Part shown: piece after piece, positions 1,039-62,543 of the stretch | Position numbering within the stretch: position 1 is the stretch's first letter | How the letters are laid out: each line of letters begins with the position of its first letter | Source: an uncultured Dokdonia sp. | Lineage (GTDB): Bacteria; Bacteroidota; Bacteroidia; Flavobacteriales; Flavobacteriaceae | Assembly (NCBI RefSeq): GCF_947496725.1 | Contig: NZ_CANMDS010000002.1 | Coordinates: 310,001 to 374,000, forward strand | Direction of reading: 5' to 3' | Length of the DNA stretch: 64,000 nt | The notes under the pieces: model-generated | The model's input: the letters and a program-made list of their open reading frames with translations, nothing else | What the model was told of the DNA's origin: nothing | The model's database searches: none | Translations under genes and position numbers: made by a program

Positions 1039-1060
1039 TTACGCTTTCGCGAAAGCGTAA
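1039..1060. repeat. Iterated palindrome, perfect 22-bp copy (intergenic)
   Basis: A perfect 22-base palindrome centred on TCGCGA. Its inner 18 bases, ACGCTTTCGCGAAAGCGT, are at 1041-1058. It lies between the DUF3291 stop and the CNNM gene. No T-tract follows it, so it does not look like an ordinary terminator. Confidence 0.95.
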
Positions 1061-1116
1061 AAGCACTTCTACTATACTCTCTTTTTCCATACATTTACAT
1101 AAATAGCAAACTAACT

Positions 1117-2220
1117 ATGGGTCAACTTTTACTTTGGGCAACGATTTCGATATTTTTTTCATTCTTGTGTTCTATACTTGAAGCTGTACTTCTAAGTGTG
1201 ACACCTACGTTTATAAACATCAAGAAAAACGAAGGAAAAGCCTACGCCGAAACTCTTGAAGAACTTAAAAAAGATGTAGATAAACCGCTTATTGCAATCC
1301 TTACCTTAAACACACTTGCACACACCGTAGGTGCAATGATGGTAGGTACTGTAGCTGCAGATTTATATCCCGAGTTTGTTATAAACTTAGGCTTTACAGA
1401 GATTAATTTTCTTGGTTTTGTCTCTGCAATAATGACCTTACTTATCTTAATTGCTAGTGAGATTATACCTAAAACTATAGGTGCAAAATTTTGGAAATCT
1501 CTAGCAAACTTCTCTGCAAAGACACTTAAGATAATGGTGCTACTTTTAAAGTACACAGGAGTATTATGGTTGCTACAACTTTTTACTCGTATGGTAGGTG
1601 GCGGTGGTCATCACGAGAGTGTGCTAAGCCGTGAGGACTTTACTGCAATGGCACAAATGGCTGGTGAAGATGGCGTTTTTGAAGAAAGTGAATCTAAAAT
1701 TCTTAATAACCTTCTTACTTTTAAAGAGGTACTTACTAAGGATATTATGACGCCACGTACAGTCATAAAAATGGCAGATGCAAACACAACCGTTGCAGAC
1801 TTTTTTGAAGAAAATCAATCGCTACGTTTTTCTAGGATTCCAATTTTTGAAGGAACACGTGATCACATCACTGGTATTGTTTTAAAGAGCGAGGTTTACC
1901 GTGAGATGGCACTAGATAATCACACAACAACTCTTAAAGAGATAGAACGTCCTATTTTAATCACAAAACGTAATTTGCCTATTCCAGATCTTTTTGAAGA
2001 ACTTATTTCTACAAAAAATCACATCGCCCTAGTGGTAGATGAGTATGGTACTATGAGTGGTCTTGTCACAATGGAAGATGTGATAGAAACTCTTCTTGGA
2101 CTAGAAATTATGGATGAAAGTGATAGTGTAGCAGACTTGCAAACGCTAGCCCGTCGCAACTGGCAAAAAAGAGCCAAAGCTCTAGGGCTTTATGATGAGA
2201 ATAGTCCTAAAAGCGAGTAA
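1117..2220 (+). CDS. CNNM (DUF21) / CBS-domain membrane protein, CorC-HlyC family
   Basis: A 367-residue integral membrane protein. The first about 175 residues form the CNNM/DUF21 transmembrane domain, with several hydrophobic helices and the conserved ASEIIPKTIGAKF segment. Next comes the acidic LSREDFTAMAQMAGEDG linker, then a pair of CBS domains starting near DIMTPRTVIKM and ending around VTMEDVIETLLG. Members of this family are implicated in Mg2+ or other cation efflux and are often annotated as haemolysins. The protein stops about 40 residues after the CBS pair and so lacks the CorC_HlyC C-terminal domain seen in many relatives. It stands alone on the plus strand and faces the convergent histidine kinase gene, with only 10 bases between stops. 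Confidence 0.9.
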   Translation: MGQLLLWATISIFFSFLCSILEAVLLSVTPTFINIKKNEGKAYAETLEELKKDVDKPLIAILTLNTLAHTVGAMMVGTVAADLYPEFVINLGFTEINFLGFVSAIMTLLILIASEIIPKTIGAKFWKSLANFSAKTLKIMVLLLKYTGVLWLLQLFTRMVGGGGHHESVLSREDFTAMAQMAGEDGVFEESESKILNNLLTFKEVLTKDIMTPRTVIKMADANTTVADFFEENQSLRFSRIPIFEGTRDHITGIVLKSEVYREMALDNHTTTLKEIERPILITKRNLPIPDLFEELISTKNHIALVVDEYGTMSGLVTMEDVIETLLGLEIMDESDSVADLQTLARRNWQKRAKALGLYDENSPKSE

Positions 2221-2230
2221 ACCAGCCACT

Positions 2231-4462
2231 TTATGCGGTTACAATATGTTTGTTTTTAATATTACGTACTAGCACGCTTAAAAACAGCGATACATCATAA
2301 GGTTTTACTAGAATGTCATCCATTCCTGCTGTATAAATTTTATGTCTTATCTCTTGTATTTCTACCGCTGTTAAGGCAACTATAGGTGTAGACTTATCAA
2401 ATGTTCTAATTTCTTTTGTGGCCTGTATACCATCTTTTTTAGGCATATGGATGTCCATAAGTATAAGGCTATATTCTTGATTTTTTGCCATCTCTACGGC
2501 CTCTATACCATCACTAGCTAGACTACACAATAAACCTTTGCTCTCAAGAAGTTTTTGAGTGATTTTTTGATTAATACGGTTATCATCTACCACAAGAATA
2601 TGAGCATCTTGTAGTGTGTGTACACTCTCTGTCCCTAACAACTCATTTGATGTAATAACTTGACGAGGTAATGCTGTGCTCTTAGGTTTTTCAAATTCTA
2701 TAACAAATGAGAAGGTTGCTCCTTGCCCCTCATCACTTTCTAATATAACCTCACTATTATATAATGCCAGTAGCTTTTTTACTATAGGTAAACCTAAACC
2801 GGTACCTTGATAATTATAGTTTTTATTCTCTACCTGAGTAAACTCTTCAAAAATGGTGTCTTGGCTACTTTTTGGTATACCCATACCATCATCTTTTACT
2901 ACAAACAAGATGCTATGACGCCCTTCATCTGTGTGGGCTTGCTGATGTATGTTTATCCAGATATTTCCATTTTCATTAAATTTTATAGCATTACCTATAA
3001 GGTTCATTAGTATTTGAGAAAGTCTCACAGAATCTCCTTGAAGCTCATTAGGGACCTCTGGGTCTATATGTAGATGAAGTTTATTGTTGTTTTGCTCAAG
3101 GCTAAACTCAAATGAGCGAGTAATACTGTGTAATAAGGTAGTAAGTTTAAAAGGTGCGTGCTCAAGTTTTATATCTTTTGCCTCCATCTTACTCATAAGG
3201 AGCACATCGTTTATAAGAGCAAGTAAATAATCTGCCGAAAACTTAAGCGACTTTAAGTCATCACGATGTGTTTTTATGATTTTATCTTCAAGTAAAATGG
3301 TAGCAATACCTATTACCCCATAAAGTGGCGTGCGTAACTCGTGGCTTATGGTAGAGAAAAATTGAGTCTTGAGCTTTGAGAGTTGTTCAGCTTCATTTTT
3401 GGCTTTTGTGAGTTCTATGTTTTTTTCGCGTAAGCGATCACTATAGTTTTTACGAGATTTATACATCGTGTAGATGATAAATAAACCTATAAGCAAGAGT
3501 AATGATGCAACTATAAGCACGGTATTTGCTCTACGTGAGCTTGCCGCTAGTATATCTGTAAGGCTTTTTTCTTTCTTGGTAATTTCTAGTTCGCGCTTAT
3601 TTGCTCTGTAATCAAACTGTGCGCTGGCAAGTCTTACTTCTTGTTGGGTTTCATTTTTATATAGTTGGTTTGCAAGTAATAGCTGTCGCTGCGAGTGATA
3701 ATATGCCTCTTCAAATTTTTTCTCTTGCTCATAGAGTCTCGCTATCTGTTGCTGTGCTTGTTCTTCTTGGGCAATGAGTTCTTGTTCAAAAGAAATATCT
3801 ATAGCTTCTAGTAAGGCTTCTTCGGCTAGAGTGCTTTTATCTTTTTTAATGTAATATTTACCTAATAGTGTAAGGATCTGTGCCCTTGGCTTAAAATTAA
3901 GTGTATCCCTTAGGCTCATCATTTTTGCCTCCATAAGGGCAGGGTAAGCCATTGCAATATTATCTCGTGTGAGATACATACGGCTTAACTCTATATATGA
4001 CTGGAGGGCATCATCTCTAAGGTTAAGCTTAGTATAAGTATCTATACTTTTTTTAAACAGTGTAGTAGCCCTTTCTTCAAACTCAGGATATACGCTATAT
4101 GTTTTACCTAGATTACTGTATGATATGGCAAGTAGTGTGTCATTTTTAGACTTTTGTGCCATTTTTAAGGCACGCTCAAATGCCTCGTGAGCTTTAGGTG
4201 TATCCTTAAGCATTAGATAGATGTCACCTAGTAATGTAAATCCTTGGAATTGCTTTTTTGAATCTTCTTCTATTGCTGAGGAGTTAAGTAACTCATCTAG
4301 TGTATGTATAGCGCTAGTGTATTCTTTACTTTGGAATTGCCCTTTTGCAATATCTAAGGTGTAAATTCTACCCTCATCATAGGTCTGAGCATTTTCTTGC
4401 CCAGAGACCTTATGACTAGATAAAAGTATAATAGGGATTATAAATACTAATAATAGACGCAT
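2231..4462 (-). CDS. Hybrid sensor histidine kinase with periplasmic TPR region and receiver domain
   Basis: A 743-residue membrane sensor. It has an N-terminal signal sequence (about 1-22) and a helical TPR-like region (about 30-290). A transmembrane helix (about 313-335) is followed by a short coiled coil. The HisKA dimerisation domain carries the phospho-acceptor motif FFSTISHELRTPLYG. An HATPase domain follows with the G boxes DDGMGIP and GTGLGLPIVKKLL, then a C-terminal receiver domain with ILVVDDNRINQ and LILMDIHMPKKDG (acceptor Asp). It should sense an envelope signal and pass phosphate from His to its own Asp; the final partner is not in the window. It is transcribed divergently from ogt, and the shared promoter region contains an inverted repeat. 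Confidence 0.93.
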   Translation of the reverse strand: MRLLLVFIIPIILLSSHKVSGQENAQTYDEGRIYTLDIAKGQFQSKEYTSAIHTLDELLNSSAIEEDSKKQFQGFTLLGDIYLMLKDTPKAHEAFERALKMAQKSKNDTLLAISYSNLGKTYSVYPEFEERATTLFKKSIDTYTKLNLRDDALQSYIELSRMYLTRDNIAMAYPALMEAKMMSLRDTLNFKPRAQILTLLGKYYIKKDKSTLAEEALLEAIDISFEQELIAQEEQAQQQIARLYEQEKKFEEAYYHSQRQLLLANQLYKNETQQEVRLASAQFDYRANKRELEITKKEKSLTDILAASSRRANTVLIVASLLLLIGLFIIYTMYKSRKNYSDRLREKNIELTKAKNEAEQLSKLKTQFFSTISHELRTPLYGVIGIATILLEDKIIKTHRDDLKSLKFSADYLLALINDVLLMSKMEAKDIKLEHAPFKLTTLLHSITRSFEFSLEQNNNKLHLHIDPEVPNELQGDSVRLSQILMNLIGNAIKFNENGNIWINIHQQAHTDEGRHSILFVVKDDGMGIPKSSQDTIFEEFTQVENKNYNYQGTGLGLPIVKKLLALYNSEVILESDEGQGATFSFVIEFEKPKSTALPRQVITSNELLGTESVHTLQDAHILVVDDNRINQKITQKLLESKGLLCSLASDGIEAVEMAKNQEYSLILMDIHMPKKDGIQATKEIRTFDKSTPIVALTAVEIQEIRHKIYTAGMDDILVKPYDVSLFLSVLVRNIKNKHIVTA

Positions 4463-5039: not shown

Positions 5040-5053
5040 GCTTTCGCGAAAGC
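5040..5053. repeat. Iterated palindrome, 14-bp core (intergenic)
   Basis: Perfect core GCTTTCGCGAAAGC between the ogt stop and the serine hydrolase start. The left flank extends one more base of the long form (CGC), but the right flank runs into an A-tract. Confidence 0.93.
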
Positions 5054-6291: not shown

Positions 6292-8046
6292 ATGCGATTA
6301 TTTTCCCCTTCAGAATTCATCATCAAGGCGCTTGCTGCCTTTAAGAGATTTCCTGTGACACTCATCTGGGTTATATTATTTACACTACTGCTAGTAGTAC
6401 TTGCCGAAAGAGATGTAGACGACATATTTGAAACCTATAACAACATTTCACTCACAGCAATAATAGGTGTGAGCTGGCTTATAGGGACTCAGTTTTACAT
6501 CGAGCAGTTTAAAAGAAAAGGACTCTGGTGGATTAAAGTTATTATCATATTACTCCTTGTTGCATTCTATTTTACATTACCTGACTATGACTTTCAAAAT
6601 AATAATGAGACCCCATATATAAGGTGGTTTGTACTACTTATAGTAGGTCATCTAGCGCTACTCTTTGCTCCTTTTATTACTGTATGGCACCCTAAAGCCT
6701 ACTGGAATTATCTGGCAGATATGCTTATGGCAATCGCCAGGAGTGCCTTGTTTTCTGGAGTGTTTTATCTAGGTATCGTACTTGCATTGCTAGCCATAGA
6801 GTATCTTTTTGATGTAAAAATAAATGGTAGGCGCTACTTCCAGTTATTCTTGCTGTGTTTAGGAATCATAAATACGTGGGTATACCTATCAGATTTTCCT
6901 AAAGAGGTACAACATAACATACACCTGCACTTTCATAAAGCTATTGAAGTCTTTGTAAAGTTTATACTCATACCGCTTGCCGCACTCTACATCACAATAC
7001 TGTATGCCTATGCTCTTAAAATCTGTATACAGTGGGAATTACCTAAGGGCTGGGTGAGCTACCTTATTATCGCACTTGCTGGGCTTCTATTTATCATTCA
7101 GTTTATTATTCACCCATTAAAAGCAACTCATACCTCTAGGGTTTTTAAAAACTTTCAGCCGCTAGCATATTGGTTATTACTACCCCTGCTCATCTTGTTT
7201 TATACTGCGATTTATAAAAGAGTATCAGATTACGGCATCACAGAGCCGCGATATTTTCTTATTGTAATTGCGATTTTTATAACAGGCGCTACGCTTTACT
7301 TGCTCTTCAGTCGCAAGCAGCAGCTTCGGTTTTTACCTATGGCTCTTGCGGTTATGGGATTGTTGAGCACTTTTGGGTTTTGGGGAGCCTTCGCTGTGAG
7401 TAAACGCAGCCAGATAGATGAATTTGAAAAGATGTATACCGCTTTCGCGAAAGCAGAAATTAAAGAAAACTCAGACCCCGTAGCTTATAGAAGATTTTCA
7501 TCTATCACAAGGTACCTCGTAGAACACGATGCCGCAGAAGATCTAAAACCCATCATAGGTTACAACCCGGTAGAAAAACATACCGATGTAACTACCTGGA
7601 AGTTGTCTAACTATATTTTAAAAGACTTAGGGTATAAAATGACGGCTAGTGATATAGAGAAAAAACGCGTACACTTTAACAACGCCTCTAGTGCAGCATA
7701 TGATATACGTGGCTATGACTGGAAGCAAGACTTTCACTTTAACCTAAACGGCCAGTCAGAATATATAGAAGAAGGCTTTTCTATGATGCTTAATGGGAAA
7801 GAAATTCTTATCACAACACAAGACAGCACAGCACTCACGATACCCACACAGGCATTTTTAAAACAACTAGAAGGTGAGGATATAAATAAACCCATTAACG
7901 ACCGAGATAAACTTACACTCCGTAAAACAAATGATCTTGTGGATGTAAAAATAATATTCAACTCCATAAATTTAAAGGTTGATGGTGGTGGTCAACGTGT
8001 TATAAATTATGCGAGTGGTAGTATACTTTTAAAAGTAAAAAAATGA
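6292..8046 (+). CDS. DUF4153-type polytopic membrane protein
   Basis: A 584-residue protein with about ten to twelve hydrophobic segments in its first 380 residues, followed by a soluble C-terminal domain of about 200 residues rich in beta-strand-like sequence. It is recognisable as a DUF4153 family member, which has no established function. In-frame copy number three of the iterated palindrome (7441-7454) encodes AFAKA at the junction between the last membrane segment and the soluble domain. The stop overlaps the ATG of the exonuclease gene by four bases (ATGA), implying translational coupling. Confidence 0.8.
   Translation: MRLFSPSEFIIKALAAFKRFPVTLIWVILFTLLLVVLAERDVDDIFETYNNISLTAIIGVSWLIGTQFYIEQFKRKGLWWIKVIIILLLVAFYFTLPDYDFQNNNETPYIRWFVLLIVGHLALLFAPFITVWHPKAYWNYLADMLMAIARSALFSGVFYLGIVLALLAIEYLFDVKINGRRYFQLFLLCLGIINTWVYLSDFPKEVQHNIHLHFHKAIEVFVKFILIPLAALYITILYAYALKICIQWELPKGWVSYLIIALAGLLFIIQFIIHPLKATHTSRVFKNFQPLAYWLLLPLLILFYTAIYKRVSDYGITEPRYFLIVIAIFITGATLYLLFSRKQQLRFLPMALAVMGLLSTFGFWGAFAVSKRSQIDEFEKMYTAFAKAEIKENSDPVAYRRFSSITRYLVEHDAAEDLKPIIGYNPVEKHTDVTTWKLSNYILKDLGYKMTASDIEKKRVHFNNASSAAYDIRGYDWKQDFHFNLNGQSEYIEEGFSMMLNGKEILITTQDSTALTIPTQAFLKQLEGEDINKPINDRDKLTLRKTNDLVDVKIIFNSINLKVDGGGQRVINYASGSILLKVKK
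7441..7454. repeat. Iterated palindrome, 14-bp core inside DUF4153 gene
   Basis: Perfect GCTTTCGCGAAAGC, read in frame as Ala-Phe-Ala-Lys-Ala, at a linker between the membrane and soluble parts of the host protein. Confidence 0.95.
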
Positions 8047-8981: not shown

Positions 8982-9003
8982 TTACGCTTTCGCGAAAGCG
9001 TAA
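8982..9003. repeat. Iterated palindrome, perfect 22-bp copy (intergenic)
   Basis: Full 22-base form, identical to the copies at 1039 and 45958. It lies 11 bases after the GldL-like stop and just before a separate conventional terminator, so it is not needed as the terminator itself. Confidence 0.95.
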
Positions 9004-9015
9004 TAACAACAAAAA

Positions 9016-9045
9016 AAATCCCGACTTCATCTGAAGTCGGGATTT
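9016..9045. terminator. Bidirectional rho-independent terminator
   Basis: A 14-bp stem (AAATCCCGACTTCA and its complement) around a two-base centre. A-tracts on the left and T-rich sequence on the right suit termination in both directions, between the convergent GldL-like and M36 peptidase genes. Confidence 0.9.
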
Positions 9046-9068
9046 CTTATGTTTATAAATGACTGGCC

Positions 9069-13320: not shown

Positions 13321-15009
13321 ATGCAATCGCGAGAACTTCTTTCTGTAAAACAGCTTCATATATCTTTCCGGCAGCAAGGAGAGGTAAATGAAGTGATACA
13401 CGGTATCTCTTTTGATTTATACCGTAATGAGATACTTGCCATTGTAGGAGAATCTGGTTCCGGAAAAAGTGTATCATCCCTCGCGGTGCTGGGTTTACTT
13501 CCTAAGAAAAACACACTTATAGAAGGTAATATCATTTTTGATGATGAGTCCCTAGTTCATCTGTCTGAAAAAAAATTTCAAACCATAAGAGGTAATGAGA
13601 TTTCTATGATTTTTCAAGAGCCTATGAGCAGTCTTAATCCTTCTATGCGATGTGGAGAACAAGTAGCAGAGATTTTGAGAAGGCATACTACGCTTTCGCG
13701 AAAGCGTATAAAAAACGAAGCACTAGCACTATTTGAAAAAGTAAAACTCCCTACTGCCTCAAAAATTTATGAGGCTTATCCTCACGAAATTTCTGGAGGT
13801 CAAAAACAACGGGTAATGATTGCAATGGCTATTGCTTGTAAGCCTAAAATTCTCATTGCAGATGAGCCCACAACGGCACTAGATGTTACGGTTCAAAAGG
13901 AAATTATATTACTACTTAAACAATTACAACAAGAAACCGAGATGAGTGTGATTTTTATATCTCACGACTTATCGCTGGTAAGTGATATTGCAGATCGCGT
14001 TCTTGTAATGTATAAAGGTGATATTGTAGAAACTGCAGAAGCACAACAACTCTTTAAGTCACCTCAACACGAATACACAAAAGCACTACTAAGTGCAAGA
14101 CCGTCGCTAGATGAGCGACTCAAAAAGCTCCCTACTATACAAGATTACCTAGACAACACAACTGCTTCTGAGGTGCAGTCTAAAACAGAGCGCGCTGCAC
14201 ATCTTAAAAAACTATACGACCAACCAGCATTACTAGAGGTTCATAATGTTGAGAAAACATACTTTTCTAACAGTGGCATTTTTAGCAAAGACAAAGGTTT
14301 TAAAGCGGTAGATGATGTTTCTTTTAAAATTTATGAGGGAGAAACGCTAGGTCTGGTAGGTGAGTCTGGATGTGGTAAGTCTACGCTAGGGAATGCGATA
14401 TTACAGCTAGATCGAGCAACAGCCGGACATATTTTATATAAAGGGATAGATATTACACGTTTAAGAGGTAAAGCGTTACGTAGCTTACGTAAAGAGGTGC
14501 AAATCATTTTTCAAGATCCGTTTGCTTCTCTTAACCCAAGATTAACCGTGGGCCAGGCTATTATTGAACCTATGGAAGTGCATAAACTATATGACTCTAC
14601 AAAGGAGCGTAAAGAACGTGTATTGCAATTACTAGAACGTGTAGGTCTAGAGAAAGAACATTATAATCGATACCCGCACGAGTTTTCTGGAGGGCAGCGC
14701 CAGCGCATAGGTATTGCACGCACTATAGCTGTAAACCCAAAACTTATTGTGTGTGATGAGTCTGTAAGCGCGTTAGATATCTCCGTACAAGCACAAGTGC
14801 TTAATCTACTTAATGAGCTTAAATTAGACTTTGGGTTTACTTATATTTTTATATCTCACGATCTCGCAGTAGTAAAATATATGTCTGATCAACTTGTGGT
14901 GATGAACAAAGGTATGATAGAAGAAATGGGGGATGCAGATGCTATTTATGAACAACCTCAACAAGCATATACTAAACGACTTATAGGAGCTATACCTAAA
15001 GGCATCTAG
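13321..15009 (+). CDS. Peptide ABC transporter, fused double ATP-binding subunit (YejF/DppDF type)
   Basis: A 562-residue cytoplasmic protein with two complete ABC ATPase domains, equivalent to DppD and DppF joined in one chain. Domain 1 has Walker A GESGSGKS (about 43-50), signature ISGGQKQR and Walker B ILIADEP. Domain 2 has Walker A GESGCGKS (about 347-354), signature FSGGQRQR and Walker B LIVCDES. It would energise uptake or export of oligopeptides, but no permease or binding-protein gene is adjacent. The iterated palindrome (13689-13708) encodes TLSRKR in a variable stretch of domain 1 without disturbing the frame. A -7 element ends four bases before the chosen ATG. Confidence 0.93.
   Translation: MQSRELLSVKQLHISFRQQGEVNEVIHGISFDLYRNEILAIVGESGSGKSVSSLAVLGLLPKKNTLIEGNIIFDDESLVHLSEKKFQTIRGNEISMIFQEPMSSLNPSMRCGEQVAEILRRHTTLSRKRIKNEALALFEKVKLPTASKIYEAYPHEISGGQKQRVMIAMAIACKPKILIADEPTTALDVTVQKEIILLLKQLQQETEMSVIFISHDLSLVSDIADRVLVMYKGDIVETAEAQQLFKSPQHEYTKALLSARPSLDERLKKLPTIQDYLDNTTASEVQSKTERAAHLKKLYDQPALLEVHNVEKTYFSNSGIFSKDKGFKAVDDVSFKIYEGETLGLVGESGCGKSTLGNAILQLDRATAGHILYKGIDITRLRGKALRSLRKEVQIIFQDPFASLNPRLTVGQAIIEPMEVHKLYDSTKERKERVLQLLERVGLEKEHYNRYPHEFSGGQRQRIGIARTIAVNPKLIVCDESVSALDISVQAQVLNLLNELKLDFGFTYIFISHDLAVVKYMSDQLVVMNKGMIEEMGDADAIYEQPQQAYTKRLIGAIPKGI
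13689..13708. repeat. Iterated palindrome, 20-bp copy inside ABC transporter gene
   Basis: TACGCTTTCGCGAAAGCGTA, read as Thr-Leu-Ser-Arg-Lys-Arg between the Q-loop and signature motif of the first ATPase domain. Motif spacing looks normal, suggesting replacement of variable sequence rather than insertion. Confidence 0.95.
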
Positions 15010-17531: not shown

Positions 17532-17551
17532 TACGCTTTCGCGAAAGCGTA
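17532..17551. repeat. Iterated palindrome, 20-bp copy upstream of scoA
   Basis: TACGCTTTCGCGAAAGCGTA in the region between the scoA start and the terminator of the PBP1A operon. Confidence 0.95.
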
Positions 17552-19968: not shown

Positions 19969-20445
19969 TTATTCTTGTTTTTCTATGCGTAAGCCTACTT
20001 CGGTAAGTCCTTCAAGATTTGAATCTCCATCTATATTACCGTTTTTTCTTACTGCGTGTTTTATGGTAAAGGTGTAGGTTCCGCTTTCGCGAAAGCGTAC
20101 TCCTTCTCTATATATTAATTTACTTTCTTTTATATCTCCAAAACCGTCTCCCATCCAGGTGCCATCTGGGTTTGCCATCTCATACTCTAGTGTATCTGTA
20201 ATGGTTCTACCACGCGGAAACTGCATTTCTGTTATTAAAAACAGGTTGCTGTACGGGTATTCATTATTGTTGCGCACAGTGATAAATGTATCGTATACCT
20301 GCATACTATCTAGCTCTGTAACTTCTAGCACAACAGGCTCGTCTATCTTCCAAGAGTCACCTAGCGAAATGTAACTATGGTACTCCTGCTTTGAATCGCA
20401 AGAGGAACAAAGTATGATGAGTATACCTAGTAATACGTTACGCAT
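19969..20445 (-). CDS. gldH: Gliding motility lipoprotein GldH
   Basis: A 158-residue outer-envelope lipoprotein needed for T9SS-dependent gliding in Flavobacteriia. The signal sequence MRNVLLGILIILCSSC ends in a lipobox with Cys16 as the lipidation site. The body matches GldH, with SLGDSWKIDEPVVLEV and the C-terminal GTYTFTIKHAVRKN segment. The start at 20445 overlaps the ricT stop region by eight bases; longer upstream frames merely read through ricT. The iterated palindrome at 20082-20097 encodes RFRES before GTYTF, where relatives have ordinary variable sequence. Confidence 0.9.
   Translation of the reverse strand: MRNVLLGILIILCSSCDSKQEYHSYISLGDSWKIDEPVVLEVTELDSMQVYDTFITVRNNNEYPYSNLFLITEMQFPRGRTITDTLEYEMANPDGTWMGDGFGDIKESKLIYREGVRFRESGTYTFTIKHAVRKNGNIDGDSNLEGLTEVGLRIEKQE
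20082..20097. repeat. Iterated palindrome, 16-bp copy inside gldH
   Basis: CGCTTTCGCGAAAGCG, read on the minus strand as Arg-Phe-Arg-Glu-Ser, close to the C-terminal strand region of GldH. Confidence 0.95.
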
Positions 20446-23485: not shown

Positions 23486-23501
23486 CGCTTTCGCGAAAGC
23501 G
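23486..23501. repeat. Iterated palindrome, 16-bp copy in recA leader
   Basis: CGCTTTCGCGAAAGCG about 55 bases before the recA ATG, probably inside the 5' untranslated region. Confidence 0.94.
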
Positions 23502-26914: not shown

Positions 26915-26934
26915 TACGCTTTCGCGAAAGCGTA
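26915..26934. repeat. Iterated palindrome, 20-bp copy next to plsC stop
   Basis: TACGCTTTCGCGAAAGCGTA, ending one base before the 3' end of plsC and adjacent to, but separate from, the terminator hairpin. Confidence 0.95.
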
Positions 26935-28835: not shown

Positions 28836-28852
28836 GTCGTATAGGTTTCAAT

Positions 28853-28862
28853 TTTCGCGAAA
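28853..28862. repeat. Iterated palindrome, decayed copy before queD
   Basis: The inner TTTCGCGAAA is intact and the right arm continues AAGCG, but the left arm reads ATTTT instead of CGCTT. It ends about 20 bases before the queD ATG. Confidence 0.7.
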
Positions 28863-28882
28863 GCGAAAACCAATAATACAGT

Positions 28883-34356: not shown

Positions 34357-34806
34357 TTATGAGTTGCTAGTTTCTAAGGCGGCTTCTGGGTGGTAGTGAA
34401 CCGCTATTTCTAGCTTACAGAATTTTCTAAACATTTCCATAACCCCACAGTATTGCTCTTCAGAGAGTGTTACTGCTTTTTGGATTTTTTCTTCATTTAA
34501 GTCATCACCATAAAAGTGATAATCTAGCCATACGGTGTGATATGTTTTAGGGTGCTCCTCTGTAAGTTCTCCTTTTACGACCATTTTAAATTTTGGTACA
34601 TCTACCCTCATCTTGTTGAGTACAAATACCACATCAAGACCAGTACATCCCGCAAGACCAGAAAGCATCATTGCCTTAGGACCCATCCCGTCGTTATTGC
34701 CTCCATTTTCTGGAGAAGTATCTATGAGTACTTTATAACCCGTAGGGCTATCTGTCTCAAATTGCATTCCTTGTTTATAGATTGTAGTTACTGTATGTCC
34801 AGCCAT
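34357..34806 (-). CDS. OsmC/Ohr family protein
   Basis: A 149-residue protein of the OsmC superfamily, thiol-dependent peroxidases that reduce organic hydroperoxides. The start MAGHTVTTIYKQ is chosen because the longer frame to 34896 runs through the intergenic palindrome and has no family-like sequence. The family core is seen at GPKAMMLSGLAGCTGLDVVFVLNKM, with one Cys in the active-site helix and the second in SEEQYCGVMEMF. It is probably the first gene of a minus-strand run continuing into the SPOR protein and recJ. It is divergent from an AhpD-like gene, which also suits an oxidative-stress role. Confidence 0.85.
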   Translation of the reverse strand: MAGHTVTTIYKQGMQFETDSPTGYKVLIDTSPENGGNNDGMGPKAMMLSGLAGCTGLDVVFVLNKMRVDVPKFKMVVKGELTEEHPKTYHTVWLDYHFYGDDLNEEKIQKAVTLSEEQYCGVMEMFRKFCKLEIAVHYHPEAALETSNS

Positions 34807-34868
34807 TTTATGTGTTTGTTTTGCTTGAAATATGAAGGTACAAAATTGGTAGATAAAATGCCTATATT

Positions 34869-34882
34869 GCTTTCGCGAAAGC
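34869..34882. repeat. Iterated palindrome, 14-bp core between OsmC and AhpD-like genes
   Basis: GCTTTCGCGAAAGC in the 108-base divergent region, with the right side continuing into the longer form (GCGTAA). Confidence 0.94.
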
Positions 34883-34914
34883 GTAAATAAGAACATTAAT
34901 TTAAAATATATACG

Positions 34915-40127: not shown

Positions 40128-40754
40128 TTGAATTTACGTTTATCCATATTGTTTATACTAGTCACGATGAGTTTATATGCTCAAAAACGACTTACACAAA
40201 CCTATGATGCAACAGCTATAAAGGAGTTGTATATAAATAGCAATGAAATTTTTAAGATTAAGATTACTACTGGAGAGGTAAGAGAGATTACAGTAGCGAC
40301 CATTATAGATGGGGAGACTTTTGCAAGTACATTACTTAATACTTCTACAAACGATGGCGTACTTAAAATCACTACGGGAAAGACTCCAGATTACATCCCT
40401 TTTAATGATAAACTCGCTGCTCATAAGGTGCTGGCTATTGAGCTTGAGATTACAATTCCCAGAAGCTTAGATGTTTCTATTTACTCAACTTTGGCAAGTG
40501 TAGACACTTATGGAAAGCTTGGCCAAGTACGCATAGATTTAGGTCGTGGGCATTTTAAGGGGGAAGAATTCCGCTTTCGCGAAAGCGGAAAAATAAACAC
40601 TATATCTGGTAGTATTTATGTCTCAAGCAATCTGGTTAATGTCACCGCACAATCTAGAAATGGAAAGATTAACATCCCTCCTACTCAAGCGGATGGCCCA
40701 CTGCTAGAAATCAAAAGTATACACGGTGATGTGACGGTAGTAAAATCGTTGTGA
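40128..40754 (+). CDS. Exported beta-helix/adhesin-like protein (DUF4097-like)
   Basis: A 208-residue protein that begins with a TTG codon, the only start giving a complete signal peptide (LRLSILFILVTMSLYAQ). The mature part has repeated short strand-turn units (YINSNEIFKIKI, SLDVSIYSTLASVDTYG, INTISGSIYVSSN) suggestive of a DUF4097-like right-handed fold found in putative surface proteins. No function is known. The palindrome at 40569-40590 encodes FRFRESGK within it. It lies 34 bases before lspA. Confidence 0.6.
   Translation: MNLRLSILFILVTMSLYAQKRLTQTYDATAIKELYINSNEIFKIKITTGEVREITVATIIDGETFASTLLNTSTNDGVLKITTGKTPDYIPFNDKLAAHKVLAIELEITIPRSLDVSIYSTLASVDTYGKLGQVRIDLGRGHFKGEEFRFRESGKINTISGSIYVSSNLVNVTAQSRNGKINIPPTQADGPLLEIKSIHGDVTVVKSL
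40569..40590. repeat. Iterated palindrome variant, perfect 22-bp copy in the exported protein gene
   Basis: The 16-base core CGCTTTCGCGAAAGCG is flanked by TTC and GAA, giving a perfect 22-base palindrome whose outer bases differ from the usual TTA/TAA. It reads Phe-Arg-Phe-Arg-Glu-Ser-Gly. Confidence 0.95.
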
Positions 40755-45957: not shown

Positions 45958-45979
45958 TTACGCTTTCGCGAAAGCGTAA
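45958..45979. repeat. Iterated palindrome, perfect 22-bp copy upstream of uvrC
   Basis: Full 22-base form. It lies across the expected -33 region of the uvrC promoter, 15 bases before its -7 element. Confidence 0.95.
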
Positions 45980-46004: not shown

Positions 46005-47801
46005 ATGCCTGCTGCTCCAATAGAACTTCAACTCAAAACACTCCCTACCAGTCCGGGGATTTACCAGTATTACGACAAGAACGAAAAACTACTATACGTA
46101 GGTAAGGCAAAAAACCTCAAAAAACGTGTGTTATCTTACTTTAACAAAACACACGATAACGGGCGTATACGCACAATGGTCAAGAAAATTTACGAGATGA
46201 AACACATCGTCGTAGAGACCGAAACAGATGCGCTCCTTCTGGAAAACAGCCTTATAAAAGAGTACCAGCCGCGATATAATGTCTTGCTTAAAGATGATAA
46301 AAGCTACCCGTGGATATGTATTAAAAATGAGCGCTTCCCCAGAGTGTTTCCTACGCGTAGATTAATTAAGGATGGTAGTGAGTACTTTGGCCCATACACG
46401 AGTATGAAAACCGTGCGCACGCTACTAGATTTGATAAAAAGTCTTTATAAACTACGCACTTGTAATTATGACCTTTCTAAAGAAAAAGTAGACGCAGGTA
46501 AATTTAAGGTCTGTCTTGAGTATCATCTAGGTAATTGCGAGGGGCCTTGTGAGGCAAAGCAGTCTGAGCAAGAATATCACGAGCATATAGAGCATATACG
46601 TCAGATTGTAAAAGGAGATTTTAAAGACTCGTTAACACGCTTTCGCGAAAAAATGAAAGCCCACGCCGCAGCTATGGAGTTTGAAGATGCACAGCGCATT
46701 AAAGAAAAACTAGACATACTGGAAGGCTATCAATCTAAGAGTACGGTTGTAAACCCAAAAATTAGTAATGTTGATGTGTTCTCAATCATAAGCGATGAGG
46801 GATATGGGTATGTAAACTTCTTACAGATAAGCCACGGTGCCATCATAAAATCACACACCTTAGAACTCAAAAAACAACTAGACGAAACAGATAAAGAATT
46901 ACTAGAACTAGGTATCATAGAAATACAACAACGCTTTGATCATAACTCAAGAGAGATATATGTTCCTTTTGAGGTAAACCTGGGTGATAGATTTAAAATC
47001 ACCGTGCCCAAGCTAGGTGACAAAAAGCGAATACTAGAACTCTCTGAGCGCAACGCAAAATACTACCGTATGGAGCGTTTTAAACAAACTAAGATTGTAG
47101 ATCCAGATCGCCATACTAATAGAATTATGGCACAAATGAAGGCAGACTTACGTCTTAATGTAGAGCCTAGACACATAGAGTGTTTTGACAACTCAAACAT
47201 ACAAGGTACAAATCCCGTAGCCGCTTGCGTGGTGTTCAAAAACGGTAAGCCCAGTAAGAGTGACTACCGTAAGTTTAATATAAAAACTGTTGAGGGTCCA
47301 GATGATTTTGCAAGTATGGAAGAGGTGGTCTTTAGAAGGTATAAACGCTTGCTCAATGAAGGAGAACCTCTACCTCAACTCATTATAGTAGATGGGGGTA
47401 AAGGACAACTATCAAGCGGTGTAAAAGCACTTGACGACTTAGGCTTGCGTGGTAAAATAGCCATTATAGGTATTGCAAAAAGGCTAGAAGAATTATTTTA
47501 TCCGGGAGATAGTATACCTTTATATCTAGACAAGAAGAGTGAAACACTTAAAATCATACAGCACCTACGTAACGAGGCACACCGTTTTGGCATCACCTTT
47601 CATCGCAACCAGCGTAGTAATGCTGCTCTAGGAACAGAGCTAGATACCATAAGAGGTATAGGCGAAAAAACCATTGTAGATTTACTCAAGCACTATAGAT
47701 CTGTATCAAAGGTAAAGGCGGCTTCAAAAAAGAGTCTAACCGAGGTAATAGGCCCAGCAAAAGCAACTATTATCTATAATCACTATCACGTAAAACAATG
47801 A
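46005..47801 (+). CDS. uvrC: Excinuclease ABC subunit C
   Basis: A 598-residue nuclease subunit of nucleotide excision repair that makes both incisions. It has an N-terminal GIY-YIG domain (SPGIYQYYDKNEKLLYVGKA), a UVR domain (KAHAAAMEFEDAQRIKEKLD) that contacts UvrB, a UvrC RNase H-like domain (HIECFDNSNIQG; IIVDGGKGQLSS) and a C-terminal helix-hairpin-helix (IRGIGEKTIVDLL). The ATG at 46005 is preferred to a TTG two codons upstream that lies inside the -7 element. A partial palindrome at 46639-46650 encodes RFRE just before the UVR domain. The stop overlaps the patatin gene by four bases. Confidence 0.96.
   Translation: MPAAPIELQLKTLPTSPGIYQYYDKNEKLLYVGKAKNLKKRVLSYFNKTHDNGRIRTMVKKIYEMKHIVVETETDALLLENSLIKEYQPRYNVLLKDDKSYPWICIKNERFPRVFPTRRLIKDGSEYFGPYTSMKTVRTLLDLIKSLYKLRTCNYDLSKEKVDAGKFKVCLEYHLGNCEGPCEAKQSEQEYHEHIEHIRQIVKGDFKDSLTRFREKMKAHAAAMEFEDAQRIKEKLDILEGYQSKSTVVNPKISNVDVFSIISDEGYGYVNFLQISHGAIIKSHTLELKKQLDETDKELLELGIIEIQQRFDHNSREIYVPFEVNLGDRFKITVPKLGDKKRILELSERNAKYYRMERFKQTKIVDPDRHTNRIMAQMKADLRLNVEPRHIECFDNSNIQGTNPVAACVVFKNGKPSKSDYRKFNIKTVEGPDDFASMEEVVFRRYKRLLNEGEPLPQLIIVDGGKGQLSSGVKALDDLGLRGKIAIIGIAKRLEELFYPGDSIPLYLDKKSETLKIIQHLRNEAHRFGITFHRNQRSNAALGTELDTIRGIGEKTIVDLLKHYRSVSKVKAASKKSLTEVIGPAKATIIYNHYHVKQ
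46639..46650. repeat. Iterated palindrome, partial copy in uvrC
   Basis: GCTTTCGCGAAA with a complete left arm (CGC before it) but a right arm that changes to AAAAT after the inner ten bases. Reads Arg-Phe-Arg-Glu. Confidence 0.75.
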
Positions 47802-50029
47802 GAAAACTCCTCCTCATCGCAATAACGCTACTAGCCATACCTATCTATGCGCAAGATATAGCAAAAGAGGATGTAAAGGTAGGTCTTGTATTAAGTGGTG
47901 GTGGAGCAAAAGGACTTGCCCATATAGGCGTTCTTAAAGCTATAGAAGATGCAGGTGTGCGTGTAGATTATATTGCTGGCACAAGTATGGGAGCCATAGT
48001 AGGAGGTCTTTATGCATCTGGTTATAATGCCCAGCAACTAGATTCTATTTTTACTGCGGTAAATTTTGACAATATCATACAAGATAATTTACCTCGCCGT
48101 GCAAAAACCCCTTATGAGCGTCACGATGATGAGCGATATGCAATCACACTCCCTTTTGACAATTTTAAGATCTCCCTACCTAGCTCGCTCAGTAAGGGAC
48201 AAAACACCTACAACCTTCTCGTTAAGAACCTTGATCACGTATCTGACTTGACAGATTTTAGAAAATTACCTATCCCCTTTTTATGCATCGCTACAGATGT
48301 AGAAAATGGTGAGCAGGTTGTACTAGAAAATGGTTATCTACCAGAAGCACTAAGTGCAAGTGGTGCACTGCCTTCTCTTTTTAGCCCAGTGTTATTAAAC
48401 GATAAACTATTAATAGATGGTGGGGTGACAAATAATTACCCCATTGAAGAACTACGTGCAAAAGGTATGGAAGTGATTATAGGTGTGGATGTACAAGACA
48501 CTTTAAAATCAAGAGACAACCTTACATCTGCTACAGAGGTACTGTTACAAATAAATAACTATCGTACCGCAAAAGCGATGGAAACTAAAAGAAAAGAAAC
48601 AGACGTTTACATTAGACCTGCGATAGACAAGTACTCTGTTGTTTCTTTTGACGAAGGTAGCACCATAATAGACTTAGGTGAGAATAAGGCAAAGGAGCAG
48701 TTTCCAGCCCTACAAAAACTAGCAATGAGGCAAAGACCGCTTTCGCGAAAGCGTATAAAAACCTCTCCACAAGACTCGATACAAATTGCCACAGTTACTA
48801 TTTCCGGAAATGAAAAATACACAAGAGCGTATGTTTTAGGAAAACTTAAACTCACACCACCGGTAAAGCTATCTTATGAAGCTTTTTATAATGGGCTTAA
48901 TAACCTCTCTGCCACCGAAAATTTTGAAAAAATAGGCCACCGTTTACAAAAGGTAGAAGATGGAAGAGTATTACATCTAGAACTACAAGAATCAAAAAGC
49001 ACACAATCACTACGTCTCGCTTTACATTATGATGATCTATATCGTACGGCAGGTCTAGTAAATTTTACAAAAAAGAGAGTGCTATTTAAAAATGATGTGG
49101 CGTCTTTTGATCTTATACTTGGTGATAATATTAGATACAATTTTGATTATTATATAGACAAAGGTTTTTACTGGAGTGTAGGTCTTAAGTCTTCATATAC
49201 CTCTTTTGAAAAGGGGGTAAACGCACGGCTTTTTGACGCGACAGATGGTGTTTCATTAGAGGGCATTAACCGAGTTAACCTAGGTTATCAAGATGTTTCA
49301 AATAAAATATATTTACAGACCATTCTTGCAAAACAGTTCTCTTTTAATATAGGCTTACAACATAAATTTCTTGATATAGAGACAGAGACTGTGCTTCCTA
49401 CTACAGATGGCGAGACGGCAGTAATTTTTGATAAAAGTCATATGGGTGGTGCCTATTCTCAACTCAAGTATGACTCACTAGACAACAAGTATTTTCCTAA
49501 CTCTGGAATTCTATTTGATGCAGATTTTGATGTATACTTATTCTCTTCAGACTACAATAATAATTTTAGTGAGTTTGGAATTGCAAATGCAAGATTTATG
49601 TATGCCGCAAGTATTACAGATCGCATAACCACAACTATAGAAACCGCTGGCGGGTTTAAAGTAGGTGGCACAGATAACAGATCGCTAGATTTTGCGCTAG
49701 GAGGTTATGGTGCAAAACGAATAAATAACATTATCCCTTTCTTAGGATATGATTACTTAAGCATACTAGGCGACAGTTATGTTAAGGCCACTATTGATAT
49801 AGATTATGAAGTTTTCCCAAAAAATCACATCAATGCCTCTGCAAATTTTGCAAATGTAGGGTATGACCTTTTTGACAGTACTAAGTCGTGGTTACCTCCA
49901 CCAGAGTATTCTGGATACTCCTTAGGTTATGGCGCAGAGACGCTACTAGGACCTATAATTATAAAGTATACTTACAGTCCAGAAATAAAGAGTAGTGAGT
50001 GGTTTATTAATCTTGGTTTTGAATTTTAA
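47798..50029 (+). CDS. Patatin-like phospholipase fused to POTRA and outer-membrane barrel (PlpD-like)
   Basis: A 743-residue protein with a signal peptide (MRKLLLIAITLLAIPIYAQ). The patatin domain has the oxyanion GGGAKG, the nucleophile GTSMG with Ser63, and the catalytic Asp in DGG at about 207. A POTRA-like segment (IATVTISGNEKYTRAYVLGKL, about 328-350) follows, then a C-terminal Omp85-type barrel of about 350 residues ending WFINLGFEF. This is the layout of type Vd autotransporters such as PlpD; here the lipase may be displayed at or beyond the outer membrane. The palindrome (48738-48753, LSRKR) sits exactly in the linker between lipase and POTRA. It overlaps uvrC by four bases. Confidence 0.9.
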   Translation: MRKLLLIAITLLAIPIYAQDIAKEDVKVGLVLSGGGAKGLAHIGVLKAIEDAGVRVDYIAGTSMGAIVGGLYASGYNAQQLDSIFTAVNFDNIIQDNLPRRAKTPYERHDDERYAITLPFDNFKISLPSSLSKGQNTYNLLVKNLDHVSDLTDFRKLPIPFLCIATDVENGEQVVLENGYLPEALSASGALPSLFSPVLLNDKLLIDGGVTNNYPIEELRAKGMEVIIGVDVQDTLKSRDNLTSATEVLLQINNYRTAKAMETKRKETDVYIRPAIDKYSVVSFDEGSTIIDLGENKAKEQFPALQKLAMRQRPLSRKRIKTSPQDSIQIATVTISGNEKYTRAYVLGKLKLTPPVKLSYEAFYNGLNNLSATENFEKIGHRLQKVEDGRVLHLELQESKSTQSLRLALHYDDLYRTAGLVNFTKKRVLFKNDVASFDLILGDNIRYNFDYYIDKGFYWSVGLKSSYTSFEKGVNARLFDATDGVSLEGINRVNLGYQDVSNKIYLQTILAKQFSFNIGLQHKFLDIETETVLPTTDGETAVIFDKSHMGGAYSQLKYDSLDNKYFPNSGILFDADFDVYLFSSDYNNNFSEFGIANARFMYAASITDRITTTIETAGGFKVGGTDNRSLDFALGGYGAKRINNIIPFLGYDYLSILGDSYVKATIDIDYEVFPKNHINASANFANVGYDLFDSTKSWLPPPEYSGYSLGYGAETLLGPIIIKYTYSPEIKSSEWFINLGFEF
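48738..48753. repeat. Iterated palindrome, 16-bp copy in patatin-barrel gene
   Basis: CGCTTTCGCGAAAGCG, read Pro-Leu-Ser-Arg-Lys-Arg, in the linker between the lipase and POTRA domains. Confidence 0.95.
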
Positions 50030-52429: not shown

Positions 52430-52911
52430 TATTCAAAAATTAAGTGTTCTTTATTTTTTAATGTGCTTACGTCTACGTCATATGCCGTAACGATTTGCGG
52501 TATTTGGTTTAAGGTTTTTAAGGTTTTTGCTTTCGCGAAAGCGTTACCATCCTCAATTACTTTTATAAAATAGTCTACTTGTGGTAGCTCTGGTATAAAA
52601 TAAGCCGTTTTAAGGCTCTGTTGTGACTCAAATAAGCCTTGAGAAAGGTTTTGACTTACCGCCACCTTAGACTTGTTTGAGAGCACATAGTAGTCTATAT
52701 ACTGTTGCTTATCATTAAATTCAAAACAAGGATATCTTGCTGTACTTTCATATTGTGTTAATAAGAGGTCTTCACAAGTTCTTGCTAGACGAACATCTAA
52801 GTTTTTATTAAGTAAATATGCTAAGTAATATGGCTCTAATGAACCGTGTATGGCTATGAGCGTAAAGTCATAACCAATGGAATCTTCTAAAAGAATTTTA
52901 TACATTCCCAT
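52429..52911 (-). CDS. IPExxxVDY family protein
   Basis: A roughly 160-residue protein of a family found in Bacteroidota and named for its conserved motif, present here as IPELPQVDYF near the middle. Function is unknown. Conserved flanks include SLEPYYLAYLLNKNLDVRL near the N-terminus. The start at 52911 (or the ATG two codons later) fits the family; the frame extending to 52947 adds a hydrophobic stretch not seen in relatives. The palindrome at 52529-52542 encodes AFAKA. The gene is coupled to pyk by a one-base overlap. Confidence 0.85.
   Translation of the reverse strand: MGMYKILLEDSIGYDFTLIAIHGSLEPYYLAYLLNKNLDVRLARTCEDLLLTQYESTARYPCFEFNDKQQYIDYYVLSNKSKVAVSQNLSQGLFESQQSLKTAYFIPELPQVDYFIKVIEDGNAFAKAKTLKTLNQIPQIVTAYDVDVSTLKNKEHLIFE
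52529..52542. repeat. Iterated palindrome, 14-bp core in IPExxxVDY gene
   Basis: GCTTTCGCGAAAGC, read Ala-Phe-Ala-Lys-Ala on the minus strand, just after the conserved motif region. Confidence 0.94.
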
Positions 52912-53010
52912 AGTAATAAAGCAAGTGAGAAAGATACAAAGAAGCATCTAAAGCTAAGGGGGAGGTATGTAAAACTTACGTAAACGTTTTCGTTAGATTA
53001 AGGTATTTTT

Positions 53011-57160: not shown

Positions 57161-57754
57161 ATGAAACGAATTGTGATTTTTGCCTCGGGTAACGGTACAA
57201 ATGCCCAGCGTATTATAGAGTATTTTCGGGATCGTACGGATGCACAAGTCGTGCAAGTACTTACTAACAACCCGCGTGCCAAAGTTTTAGAACGCGCCAC
57301 AAAACTGGATGTACCCGCATTAAGTTTTAACAGAAAAGCTTTTTATAAAAGTGATGATGTACTGCATTTACTCACTGCAACAAAGCCAGATCTTATCGTT
57401 CTTGCTGGTTTTTTATGGCTTTTTCCAGAAAAAATCATTTCGGCATTTCCAGATAAGGTCATAAATATACATCCTGCGTTGCTACCTAACTTTGGCGGTA
57501 AAGGGATGTACGGTATGAATGTGCACGAGGCTGTTTACGCTTTCGCGAAAGCGGAGTACCTTAAGAATCCCACTCAAAAAATTCACACAGGCATCACCAT
57601 ACACAAGGTAACACCCGAGTATGATAAGGGAGATTTCTTATTTCAAGCCAAAGTTGAAGTCACTCCAGAAGACACCCCAGAAGCAATTGCCAAAAAAATA
57701 CACCAGCTAGAATACACGCACTTTCCAGAGGTAATCGCAAAGTTCTTATCTTAG
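57161..57754 (+). CDS. purN: Phosphoribosylglycinamide formyltransferase
   Basis: A 197-residue enzyme that formylates GAR with 10-formyl-THF in purine synthesis. Motifs seen: FASGNGTNAQRIIEYF near the start, LAGFLWLFPE, the catalytic NIHPALLPNFGGKGMYGMNVHEAV (Asn, His) and HKVTPEYDKGDFLFQ (catalytic Asp). Between HEAV and the conserved TGITIH the protein has a stretch (YAFAKAEYLKNPTQKIH) about ten residues longer than usual, part of which is encoded by the iterated palindrome. It is followed four bases later by the RNase H gene. Confidence 0.95.
   Translation: MKRIVIFASGNGTNAQRIIEYFRDRTDAQVVQVLTNNPRAKVLERATKLDVPALSFNRKAFYKSDDVLHLLTATKPDLIVLAGFLWLFPEKIISAFPDKVINIHPALLPNFGGKGMYGMNVHEAVYAFAKAEYLKNPTQKIHTGITIHKVTPEYDKGDFLFQAKVEVTPEDTPEAIAKKIHQLEYTHFPEVIAKFLS
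57538..57553. repeat. Iterated palindrome, 16-bp copy in purN
   Basis: CGCTTTCGCGAAAGCG, read Tyr-Ala-Phe-Ala-Lys-Ala-Glu, inside an apparently extended loop of PurN. Confidence 0.95.
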
Positions 57755-58486: not shown

Positions 58487-58529
58487 AAAAGTTTTATTGC
58501 CAGTTTATTTGTATAATTTAATTTAAAAT

Positions 58530-58539
58530 TTTCGCGAAA
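58530..58539. repeat. Iterated palindrome, decayed copy before the PfkB kinase gene
   Basis: The inner TTTCGCGAAA is intact and continues AAGCGG on the right, but the left arm reads AAATT. It is 20 bases upstream of the kinase promoter's TTG. Confidence 0.7.
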
Positions 58540-58559
58540 GCGGTCTCCTTAAAGTTGAG

Positions 58560-59565: not shown

Positions 59566-59578
59566 GTTTTATAAAGCT

Positions 59579-61591: not shown

Positions 61592-61661
61592 CCATAACAT
61601 AAGTAGGTTAAGTTAATGGTAGATTTGGGGCAAAAAAAGGTGGATCTTTCCGCCTTTTTTT
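61592..61661 (+). ncRNA. Candidate small non-coding RNA of about 70 bases
   Basis: Predicted to start just after TATATTAG (61579-61586) and end at the terminator hairpin 61632-61661. It has no coding frame and belongs to no recognised RNA family. The evidence is only the order of activator-like repeats, -7 element and terminator; the hairpin could instead end read-through from the PurF-like gene. Confidence 0.35.
61632..61661 (+). terminator. Rho-independent terminator
   Basis: The 13-base arms AAAAAAAGGTGGA/TCCGCCTTTTTTT (one G-T pair) with a four-base loop, about 155 bases after the PurF-like stop. Confidence 0.85.
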
Positions 61662-61771
61662 ATGCGCAATTTTCACCTAGAGCGATGTAGTCAATTTCTT
61701 ATTAAAAGATTTTTATCACTCCTCATTACAAACTTTAGTAGCGTACTCTCTCAGAGAGTTAAAACATAAAA

Positions 61772-61799
61772 AAAGGTCCATTCTAACGAATGGACCTTT
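61772..61799 (-). terminator. sodA terminator
   Basis: The 12-base arms AAAGGTCCATTC/GAATGGACCTTT with a TAAC loop. A-tract at 61767-61774 gives the U-run on the minus strand, 21 bases after the sodA stop. Confidence 0.92.
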
Positions 61800-61819
61800 G
61801 TAATTATATAGGCTATCGC

Positions 61820-62428: not shown

Positions 62429-62468
62429 TTCTCTTTCGTTTTTGGTTAAACTTCAATTCTGATTTTAA

Positions 62469-62476
62469 CAAAGTTA
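62469..62476 (-). promoter_or_regulatory. sodA promoter -7 element
   Basis: TAACTTTG on the minus strand (62476 to 62469), about 40 bases before the sodA ATG. No clear TTG at -33. Confidence 0.55.
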
Positions 62477-62523
62477 CATAAAGTAAGGTATTCTTTGTGT
62501 TATAGAATTCTTATAAATGGGTG

Positions 62524-62543
62524 TACGCTTTCGCGAAAGCGTA
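62524..62543. repeat. Iterated palindrome, 20-bp copy between sodA and helicase genes
   Basis: TACGCTTTCGCGAAAGCGTA in the 267-base divergent region, upstream of the sodA -7 element. Confidence 0.95.

Follow-up and report, generated by a model that had tools for sequence, protein, structure and literature searches.

An evenly spaced, selectively maintained palindrome in Dokdonia: a possible two-way signpost for DNA processing

Chi sites occur about once every few kilobases, and the sites bound by ParB (parS) and by Noc are palindromes of 14–16 bp with TTTC...GAAA arms. DNA uptake sequences (DUS) are described as occurring in dialects and as useful in spotting mobile elements (excerpts of PMC3630211 and PMC7371117). 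HIP1, a highly iterated palindrome of cyanobacteria (GCGATCGC), was described in 1995 and in 2015 was still without a settled function, as far as the available part of PMC4390886 goes. Here, we analyze an iterated palindrome of an uncultured Dokdonia species (Flavobacteriaceae), noticed in a stretch of 64,000 nucleotides of its genome (contig NZ_CANMDS010000002.1, positions 310,001 to 374,000), referred to as the window. The isoleucyl-tRNA synthetase (IleRS) is 92% identical to that of D. sinensis, which places the genome in Dokdonia. The 14-bp core, GCTTTCGCGAAAGC, occurs in 905 exact copies in the genome of 3.29 Mb, and the reversed-letter control gives 0. A reading of the window from its sequence only had proposed such a motif, and the copies are neither confined to this segment nor near the number expected from composition. 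The palindrome is the centre of a DNA element of about 70 bp that selection maintains, and its sites form an even grid across the chromosome. With a probability of about 0.35, we read the dyad as a signpost that works in both directions, is similar to Chi in use and serves DNA-end processing, recombination or self-marking.

In the congener G016, which shares 93.6% identity with this genome, 73 of 74 aligned sites are perfect. At 80% identity, G005 still has 46 of 56 aligned sites perfect compared to 14% of all aligned 14-mers, and in G008 the values are 30 of 39 sites and a background of 15%. Genic and intergenic sites are kept alike in G005, with 27 of 32 and 20 of 24, a total one apart from 46 as the mapping was read two ways. 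Third codon positions within sites are 93.8% identical (n = 146) compared to 60.1% elsewhere, and the constraint therefore acts on the DNA. The conserved footprint in the comparison with G005 covers 16–18 bp. A region of 40 kb around IleRS contains 10 window sites, and G016, G005, G007 and G008 have every one of them at the same place. G003 and G017 each have 7 at the same place, 1 lost and 2 unaligned. G013 has 4 at the same place, 1 nearby and 3 lost, G014 has 3 at the same place and 2 nearby, and G010 has 2 and 2, with the rest unaligned in these three genomes; in G011, where only 3.8 kb can be aligned, no site is aligned. Alleles with and without a site differ through substitutions in stretches of the same length (10 pairs with the site only here, 4 with the site only in G005). 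The site at 32159 is shifted by 6 bp in locus L033 without an alignment gap. Between this genome (G000) and G005, new sites tend to be close to lost ones, which at P = 0.045 is suggestive only.

The unit under selection is larger than the 14 bases that the sequence-only reading had named, while the symmetric extension it described holds. The consensus in this genome is TTACGCTTTCGCGAAAGCGTAA, a 22-bp dyad. On each strand, the ~25 bases 5′ of the consensus are depleted in C (6–10% C, 23–29% G) and the 3′ side is depleted in G, and further than ~25 bp from the site the composition is normal. This skew is common to 109 genic and 81 intergenic copies irrespective of the coding strand, 4 of the 194 sites being excluded from the comparison as they lie at gene edges. 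Among polarised flank substitutions, changes into C are suppressed (15 versus 34 expected) and changes from C are raised (18 versus 9.5 expected). This is the pattern of weak selection, or of biased transmission, on each flank base. Mutation alone is rejected as the source of the skew, since it is the changes into C that are suppressed, besides the raised changes from C. An extended hairpin is rejected as well: complementarity between the flank arms is not above chance, neither in genes (0.276 versus 0.299) nor between genes (0.323 versus 0.332).

Near-copies of the palindrome are few. In 654 kb of this genome, we count 194 perfect sites, 8 with one mismatch and 26 with two; in 226 kb of G005 the numbers are 58, 8 and 16. 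The outermost base is altered in 6 of the 8 single-mismatch copies of this genome, and 24 of its sites retain TTTCGCGAAA with one outer arm lost. Isolated half-site words are scarce in the same 654 kb, with CGCGAAAGCG found 3 times versus 0.2 expected and TCGCGAAA 3 times versus 4.8 expected, and the full dyad is therefore the main unit; the one-armed form may also work. In a comparison set of 78 loci from other genera, CGCGAAAGCG occurs 18 times versus 0.8 expected, which may reflect shared genes as these loci are orthologous around IleRS.

The 192 gaps between sites in 654 kb have a mean of 3.3 kb and a coefficient of variation (CV) of 0.49, where random placement would give ~1. Short gaps are avoided: a single gap is below 500 bp compared to 27 expected, and 8 are below 1 kb compared to 50 expected. 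The gap distribution has a gamma shape of 3.8, and the Kolmogorov–Smirnov test against an exponential gives 2e-12. For the 400-kb part the CV is 0.50, and a null model with intergenic preference yields 1.03, the lowest of 3000 draws being 0.77. As to the preference itself, 59 of 137 sites are intergenic and 78 lie within genes, though intergenic DNA makes up 9.5% of bases (simple longest-ORF calls, as used in all our scripts, over 464 kb; ORF, open reading frame). This is in line with the share of under a tenth given for the window. In a complete congener genome, 20 sampled stretches of 20 kb hold 3–9 copies each with a dispersion index of 0.28, which is underdispersed. The density in these stretches shows no trend between origin and terminus, a comparison that had been suggested from the window.

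All 17 Dokdonia congeners carry the core in 369–903 copies, and the genome of D. sinensis has 857. Of 397 genomes searched in the family, 80 have at least one match, 74 of them with 1–19 copies. The other six are motif-rich: two Dokdonia, three genomes of a genus termed g11 (578, 664 and 609 copies) and one of a genus termed g210 (408 copies). Among 395 genomes searched in the class, 24 match and none except this genome exceeds 4 copies. Beyond Dokdonia, hundreds of copies are thus found in g11 and g210 only among the genomes searched, and all others have 19 or fewer; Leeuwenhoekiella blandensis has 10, and two genomes grouping with Leeuwenhoekiella have 9 and 6. The sequence-only reading was right that the motif is real and iterated, but its scope is wider: the motif is found throughout Dokdonia and is plentiful in a distant genus, and it is scarce in Leeuwenhoekiella. 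A quick-method IleRS tree of 94 rows, rooted at the midpoint, joins g210 to Leeuwenhoekiella and Dokdonia with a support of 99, and g11 to Flavobacterium and Myroides with 87. The flanks in g11 are C-poor as in Dokdonia, the consensus beside the core is slightly different (G or A at −5; C, T or A at −2), and the CV is 0.50 at a mean gap of 5.7 kb (28 gaps). As g11 is remote from Dokdonia in the tree yet motif-rich, the system would either have been transferred horizontally or have arisen twice with identical 14 bases. Two separate observations concern other words in these relatives. In 60 kb of the g11 genome G027 (L143–L145), TTCG and TTCGC outside the motif occur at 0.35 and 0.22 of expectation. 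In an uncultured Tenacibaculum (L059), the palindrome TGGAATTCCA occurs six times in 23 kb and is possibly another iterated palindrome in a different genus.

Copies are also found on mobile elements and phages. In low-copy genomes they are often clustered, and a pair 933 bp apart recurs in G149, G262, G135, G126 and G208. Of the seven cluster stretches with ORFs listed, six contain efflux genes (RND pumps, outer-membrane efflux proteins and heavy-metal P-type ATPases), assigned by a Pfam check of nine proteins from L131, L132, L133, L138, L139 and L141; in the seventh, L140, no efflux genes are seen by eye. The copies in these stretches lie within genes. The motif copies examined in otherwise motif-lacking genera mark metal-efflux islands, which are probably DNA formerly resident in a motif-rich genus, and the motif is usable as a provenance tag for transferred DNA. 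Two or three copies are present in at least 11 viral loci and a single copy in at least 109. In the multi-copy phage contigs L315, L336, L264 and L250 the copies are a few kilobases apart. L315 encodes portal and major head proteins, matched by eye by those of L336, L250 encodes a terminase, and L264 carries integrase and tape-measure genes. Among the matches listed, flanks are skewed at the 24 sites in multi-copy viral loci, with 6.5 C-left/G-right versus 9.4 G-left/C-right bases per site, and the skew in the host is stronger (3.9 versus 11.3). The 109 single-copy viral loci show no flank skew among the matches listed (12.1 versus 12.4) and are probably for the most part unrelated to the motif system.

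We infer that a putative dedicated dimeric protein recognises the dyad in double-stranded form, and that the gene of this protein would be able to move between genera. In favor of a mobile factor, g11 combines a distant position in the IleRS tree with the same core, C-poor flanks and equally even spacing. With a signpost of this type, a machine would come upon a site every few kilobases, whichever side it arrived from. Past the site, the strand ending 3′ would be GT-rich, which would suit RecA-type recombinases; RecA filaments are described as most stable on TGG-type DNA (excerpts of PMC3763553). With even spacing, each event would process a limited amount of DNA, and carrying sites would be of benefit to resident phages and mobile elements. 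A dimer bound at the sites would account for their dyad symmetry and grid layout, for the polarity of the flanks and for the copies on phages and mobile elements. Tentatively, and with the odds clearly against it, we consider a transferable genome-marking system. Here, a dimeric protein would read the 22-bp dyad and its GT/AC flanks on double-stranded DNA, and host, phages and mobile elements would evolve the grid of sites because DNA left unmarked would be degraded, go unrepaired or be lost. The mechanism is sharply constrained by the dyad, the flank polarity, the spacing law and the abundance in a distant genus. Motif-rich and motif-poor genera, with complete genomes at graded divergence, offer a clean comparative design. 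In the open-licence papers searched, we found no report of the motif, of iterated palindromes, of uptake sequences or of Chi in this group, and likewise none of a chromosomal signpost in Bacteroidota that is iterated, evenly spaced and strongly conserved.

Several points weigh against a Chi-like signpost. Known Chi sites have 5–8 bases, are non-palindromic and are read as single strands, unlike the Dokdonia motif. With 24 one-armed sites and a slight excess of CGCGAAAGCG, the full dyad is perhaps not always required. In g210 the flank skew is weak and the CV is 0.72 over 18 gaps. Site density varies about twofold between genomes (3.6 kb per copy here, ~7.5 in G013 and ~7.8 in g210), so that a fixed tract length is not implied. 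The GT-rich 5′ flank could equally be explained as shape readout by a bound dimer, and these data do not distinguish selection from biased transmission (drive). In the available part of PMC3763553, RecA is stated not to nucleate at Chi. Furthermore, no reader protein was found among the families tested (ParB, PF00437, ComEC and RecC) in 26 genomes, 13 motif-rich and 13 motif-poor. Each of the 26 has one ParB of ~300 aa. Additional ParB-domain proteins of ~600 aa are present in 1 of 13 motif-rich genomes (G010, 616 aa) and in 4 of 13 motif-poor ones; the idea of an extra ParB is set aside, as none is common to the motif-rich genomes, and ParB is unlikely as the reader. Exact canonical parS occurs in the three g11 genomes and in G017, and in none of the other 22 including this one. 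RecC (PF04257) is found in 0 of 26 genomes; it represents the sole Chi-reading complex tested by family, and AddAB was not searched. ComEC is found in all 26. The ATPase of type IV pilus and type II secretion systems (PF00437) is above the cut-off in 5 of the 13 motif-rich genomes and in 2 of the 13 motif-poor ones. At this cut-off it is missing from the other 8 motif-rich genomes, among them this one, G016, G005, G008 and G011, other uptake machines not having been searched. Its distribution is patchy (4 of 9 Dokdonia tested, 1 of 3 g11; L400–L406), which suggests that a pilus-type system was lost or gained repeatedly.

The sequence-only reading had likened the motif to HIP1 and to uptake motifs. 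They are comparable in kind, but a HIP1-type methylase alone leaves flanks and spacing unexplained, and uptake by a type IV pilus-type system is unsupported here. As an uptake sequence, the motif would direct preferential uptake of free DNA that bears it and would accumulate by molecular drive and selection. We regard this as possible but doubtful. The dyad is palindromic, and we know of no palindromic DUS or uptake signal sequence (USS). The flank dialect of g11, the presence of ComEC throughout and the appearance of new sites near lost ones agree with uptake, and the even spacing, exact conservation above background and intergenic placement match the DUS/USS profile in the published excerpts (PMC2397512, PMC7811141). 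Natural competence exists within the family, as Riemerella is naturally competent and R. columbina is described as favoring its own DNA (excerpt of PMC7965970). However, the constraint on site and flank persists between this genome and G016 with the pilus-type ATPase missing in both. DUS are reported to be absent from recently acquired genes (excerpt of PMC2397512), and in the covered segment our sites are equally dense in DNA that cannot be aligned to G005 (9 in 31.6 kb) and in alignable DNA (56 in 189.6 kb), with the reservation that numbers are small and non-alignable DNA is a rough stand-in for acquired DNA. A chromosome-organising site, where a nucleoid protein on the grid loops, bridges or positions the chromosome, is unlikely. 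It would fit the uniform grid without origin–terminus trend, the dyad symmetry and the strong conservation of each site. To our knowledge, however, site-specific organisers of such type are confined to or excluded from the origin or terminus. The motif-rich genomes share no extra member of the ParB family, and sites on phages and mobile elements as well as the strand asymmetry of the flanks are not explained by an organiser in itself.

A mechanism like that considered for HIP1 appears improbable. It would involve a solitary methyltransferase specific for the centre (TCGCGA or TTTCGCGAAA), with the palindromes made and kept by mismatch repair that the methylation guides. Any resident DNA would gain sites in this way, and the frequent change of the outermost base together with the one-armed sites resembles what is described for HIP1 (available part of PMC4390886). 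Selection over 16–22 bp plus the ~25-bp flank nevertheless reaches far past a methylase site, TCGCGA outside the motif is near expectation (ratio 1.17), and the even spacing is left unexplained. A mobile repeat of the repetitive extragenic palindromic (REP) or miniature inverted-repeat transposable element (MITE) type, or a transcription terminator, is hardly credible. The palindrome and its intergenic preference would suit either, and on the minus strand one window copy (1039-1060) resembles a terminator. Against this, aligned pairs with and without a site differ by substitutions and do not bear out copying by insertion, more than half of the sites (78 of 137) lie within genes, and tails with at least 5 T in 8 bases number 23 of 388 compared to a background of 8.3%. 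The earlier statement that the copies are not terminators hence holds for the class, with 1039-1060 as the exception. No Rfam family is detected in the window at the gathering threshold, which also counts against this alternative.

Within the window, exact search recovers all 17 cores first reported; the positions given for them were the starts of the longer palindromic stretches, 0–4 bases upstream of the 14-mer. Gaps between the copies are 1.5–5.7 kb, approximately as described. Allowing up to 2 mismatches raises the count to 22, compared to 0.25 expected (100 dinucleotide shuffles, maximum 2). Nine copies had been called intergenic, a fair count: eight lie outside ORFs of at least 100 aa, and the ninth, 34869..34882, which 4 of 10 congeners have at the same place, falls at the beginning of ORF 34357-34896 on the minus strand. 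The eight are 1043..1056 within the 22-bp palindrome at 1039-1060, 5040..5053, 8986..8999, which adjoins a separate terminator-like hairpin at 9013-9048, 17535..17548, 23487..23500, 26918..26931, 45962..45975 and 62527..62540. Among them, 17535..17548 is at the same place in 4 of 10 congeners (G016, G005, G007 and G008), lost in G013 and unaligned in 5, 23487..23500 is kept in 9 and unaligned in 1, 26918..26931 is kept in 6 and unaligned in 4, and 45962..45975 is kept in 6. Genic copies are 7441..7454 (ORF 6292-8046), 13692..13705 (ORF 13321-15009), 20083..20096 (ORF 19969-20673; same place in 8 of 10 congeners, unaligned in 2), 32159..32172 (ORF 31101-32792; 7 of 10, with the palindrome 6 bp away in L033, by gapless alignment, and in G014 and G010), 40573..40586 (ORF 40128-40754; 9 of 10, unaligned in 1), 48739..48752 (ORF 47798-50029; 4 of 10, lost in 3), 52529..52542 (ORF 52429-52947; 6 of 10) and 57539..57552 (ORF 57161-57754). 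Five of six decayed copies proposed from the window are within 2 mismatches, and near 60519 there is no match at this threshold. Two of the five have lost one arm and carry 2 mismatches, 28851..28864, which is perfect in G014, G010, G013 and L033, and 58528..58541. Two lie inside IleRS, 37142..37155 with 2 mismatches, perfect in G014 and G010, and 38528..38541 with 1 mismatch; 46639..46652 has 2 mismatches.

The same DNA shows a further peculiarity. The window lacks CATG altogether, and 654 kb (G000:C1:1-400000 and C2:160001-414000) contain 9 copies of this word compared to ~1950 expected. It is found 0 times in 255 kb of G016, at 0.09 of expectation in 40 kb of D. sinensis and 434 times in 226 kb of G005. 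When CATG sites of G005 are aligned to this genome, 0 of 375 are kept, with changes at all four bases, compared to 296 of 620 for GTAC and 218 of 549 for ACGT as controls. Judged from the sequences, this looks like extreme recent avoidance, as by strong restriction.

Compared to known systems, the Dokdonia motif shares palindromes with TTTC...GAAA arms with parS and Noc sites, and differs in arm spacing, in its hundreds of uniformly spread copies and in the lack of an extra ParB in motif-rich genomes other than G010. Like HIP1, it is a perfect palindrome in high iteration, far more frequent than composition would predict, with 905 copies as against 0 for the reversed control; most variable outer positions and, in some genomes, palindromic extensions are also described for HIP1 (excerpts of PMC4390886). 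HIP1 has 8–10 bp and is cyanobacterial, whereas the Dokdonia motif has 14–22 bp and belongs to a different phylum; even spacing and strand-asymmetric flanks are established for the Dokdonia motif. With the DUS of Neisseria and the USS of Pasteurellaceae, it has in common the relatively even spacing, high exact conservation, permissive placement and AT-rich flanking parts (excerpts of PMC2397512 and PMC7811141). It is unlike them in being palindromic and in the missing pilus-type ATPase in 8 of 13 motif-rich genomes, including its own. With Chi it shares TG-rich surroundings (excerpt of PMC3763553). A frequency of about one per few kilobases is also common to both. Unlike Chi, it is a palindromic dyad of 14–22 bp in genomes without RecC, and in place of an oriented, short non-palindromic motif we find 194 perfect dyads and 24 one-armed sites in 654 kb. 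If true, the genome-marking system would represent a two-way, dyad-read counterpart of Chi outside RecBCD.

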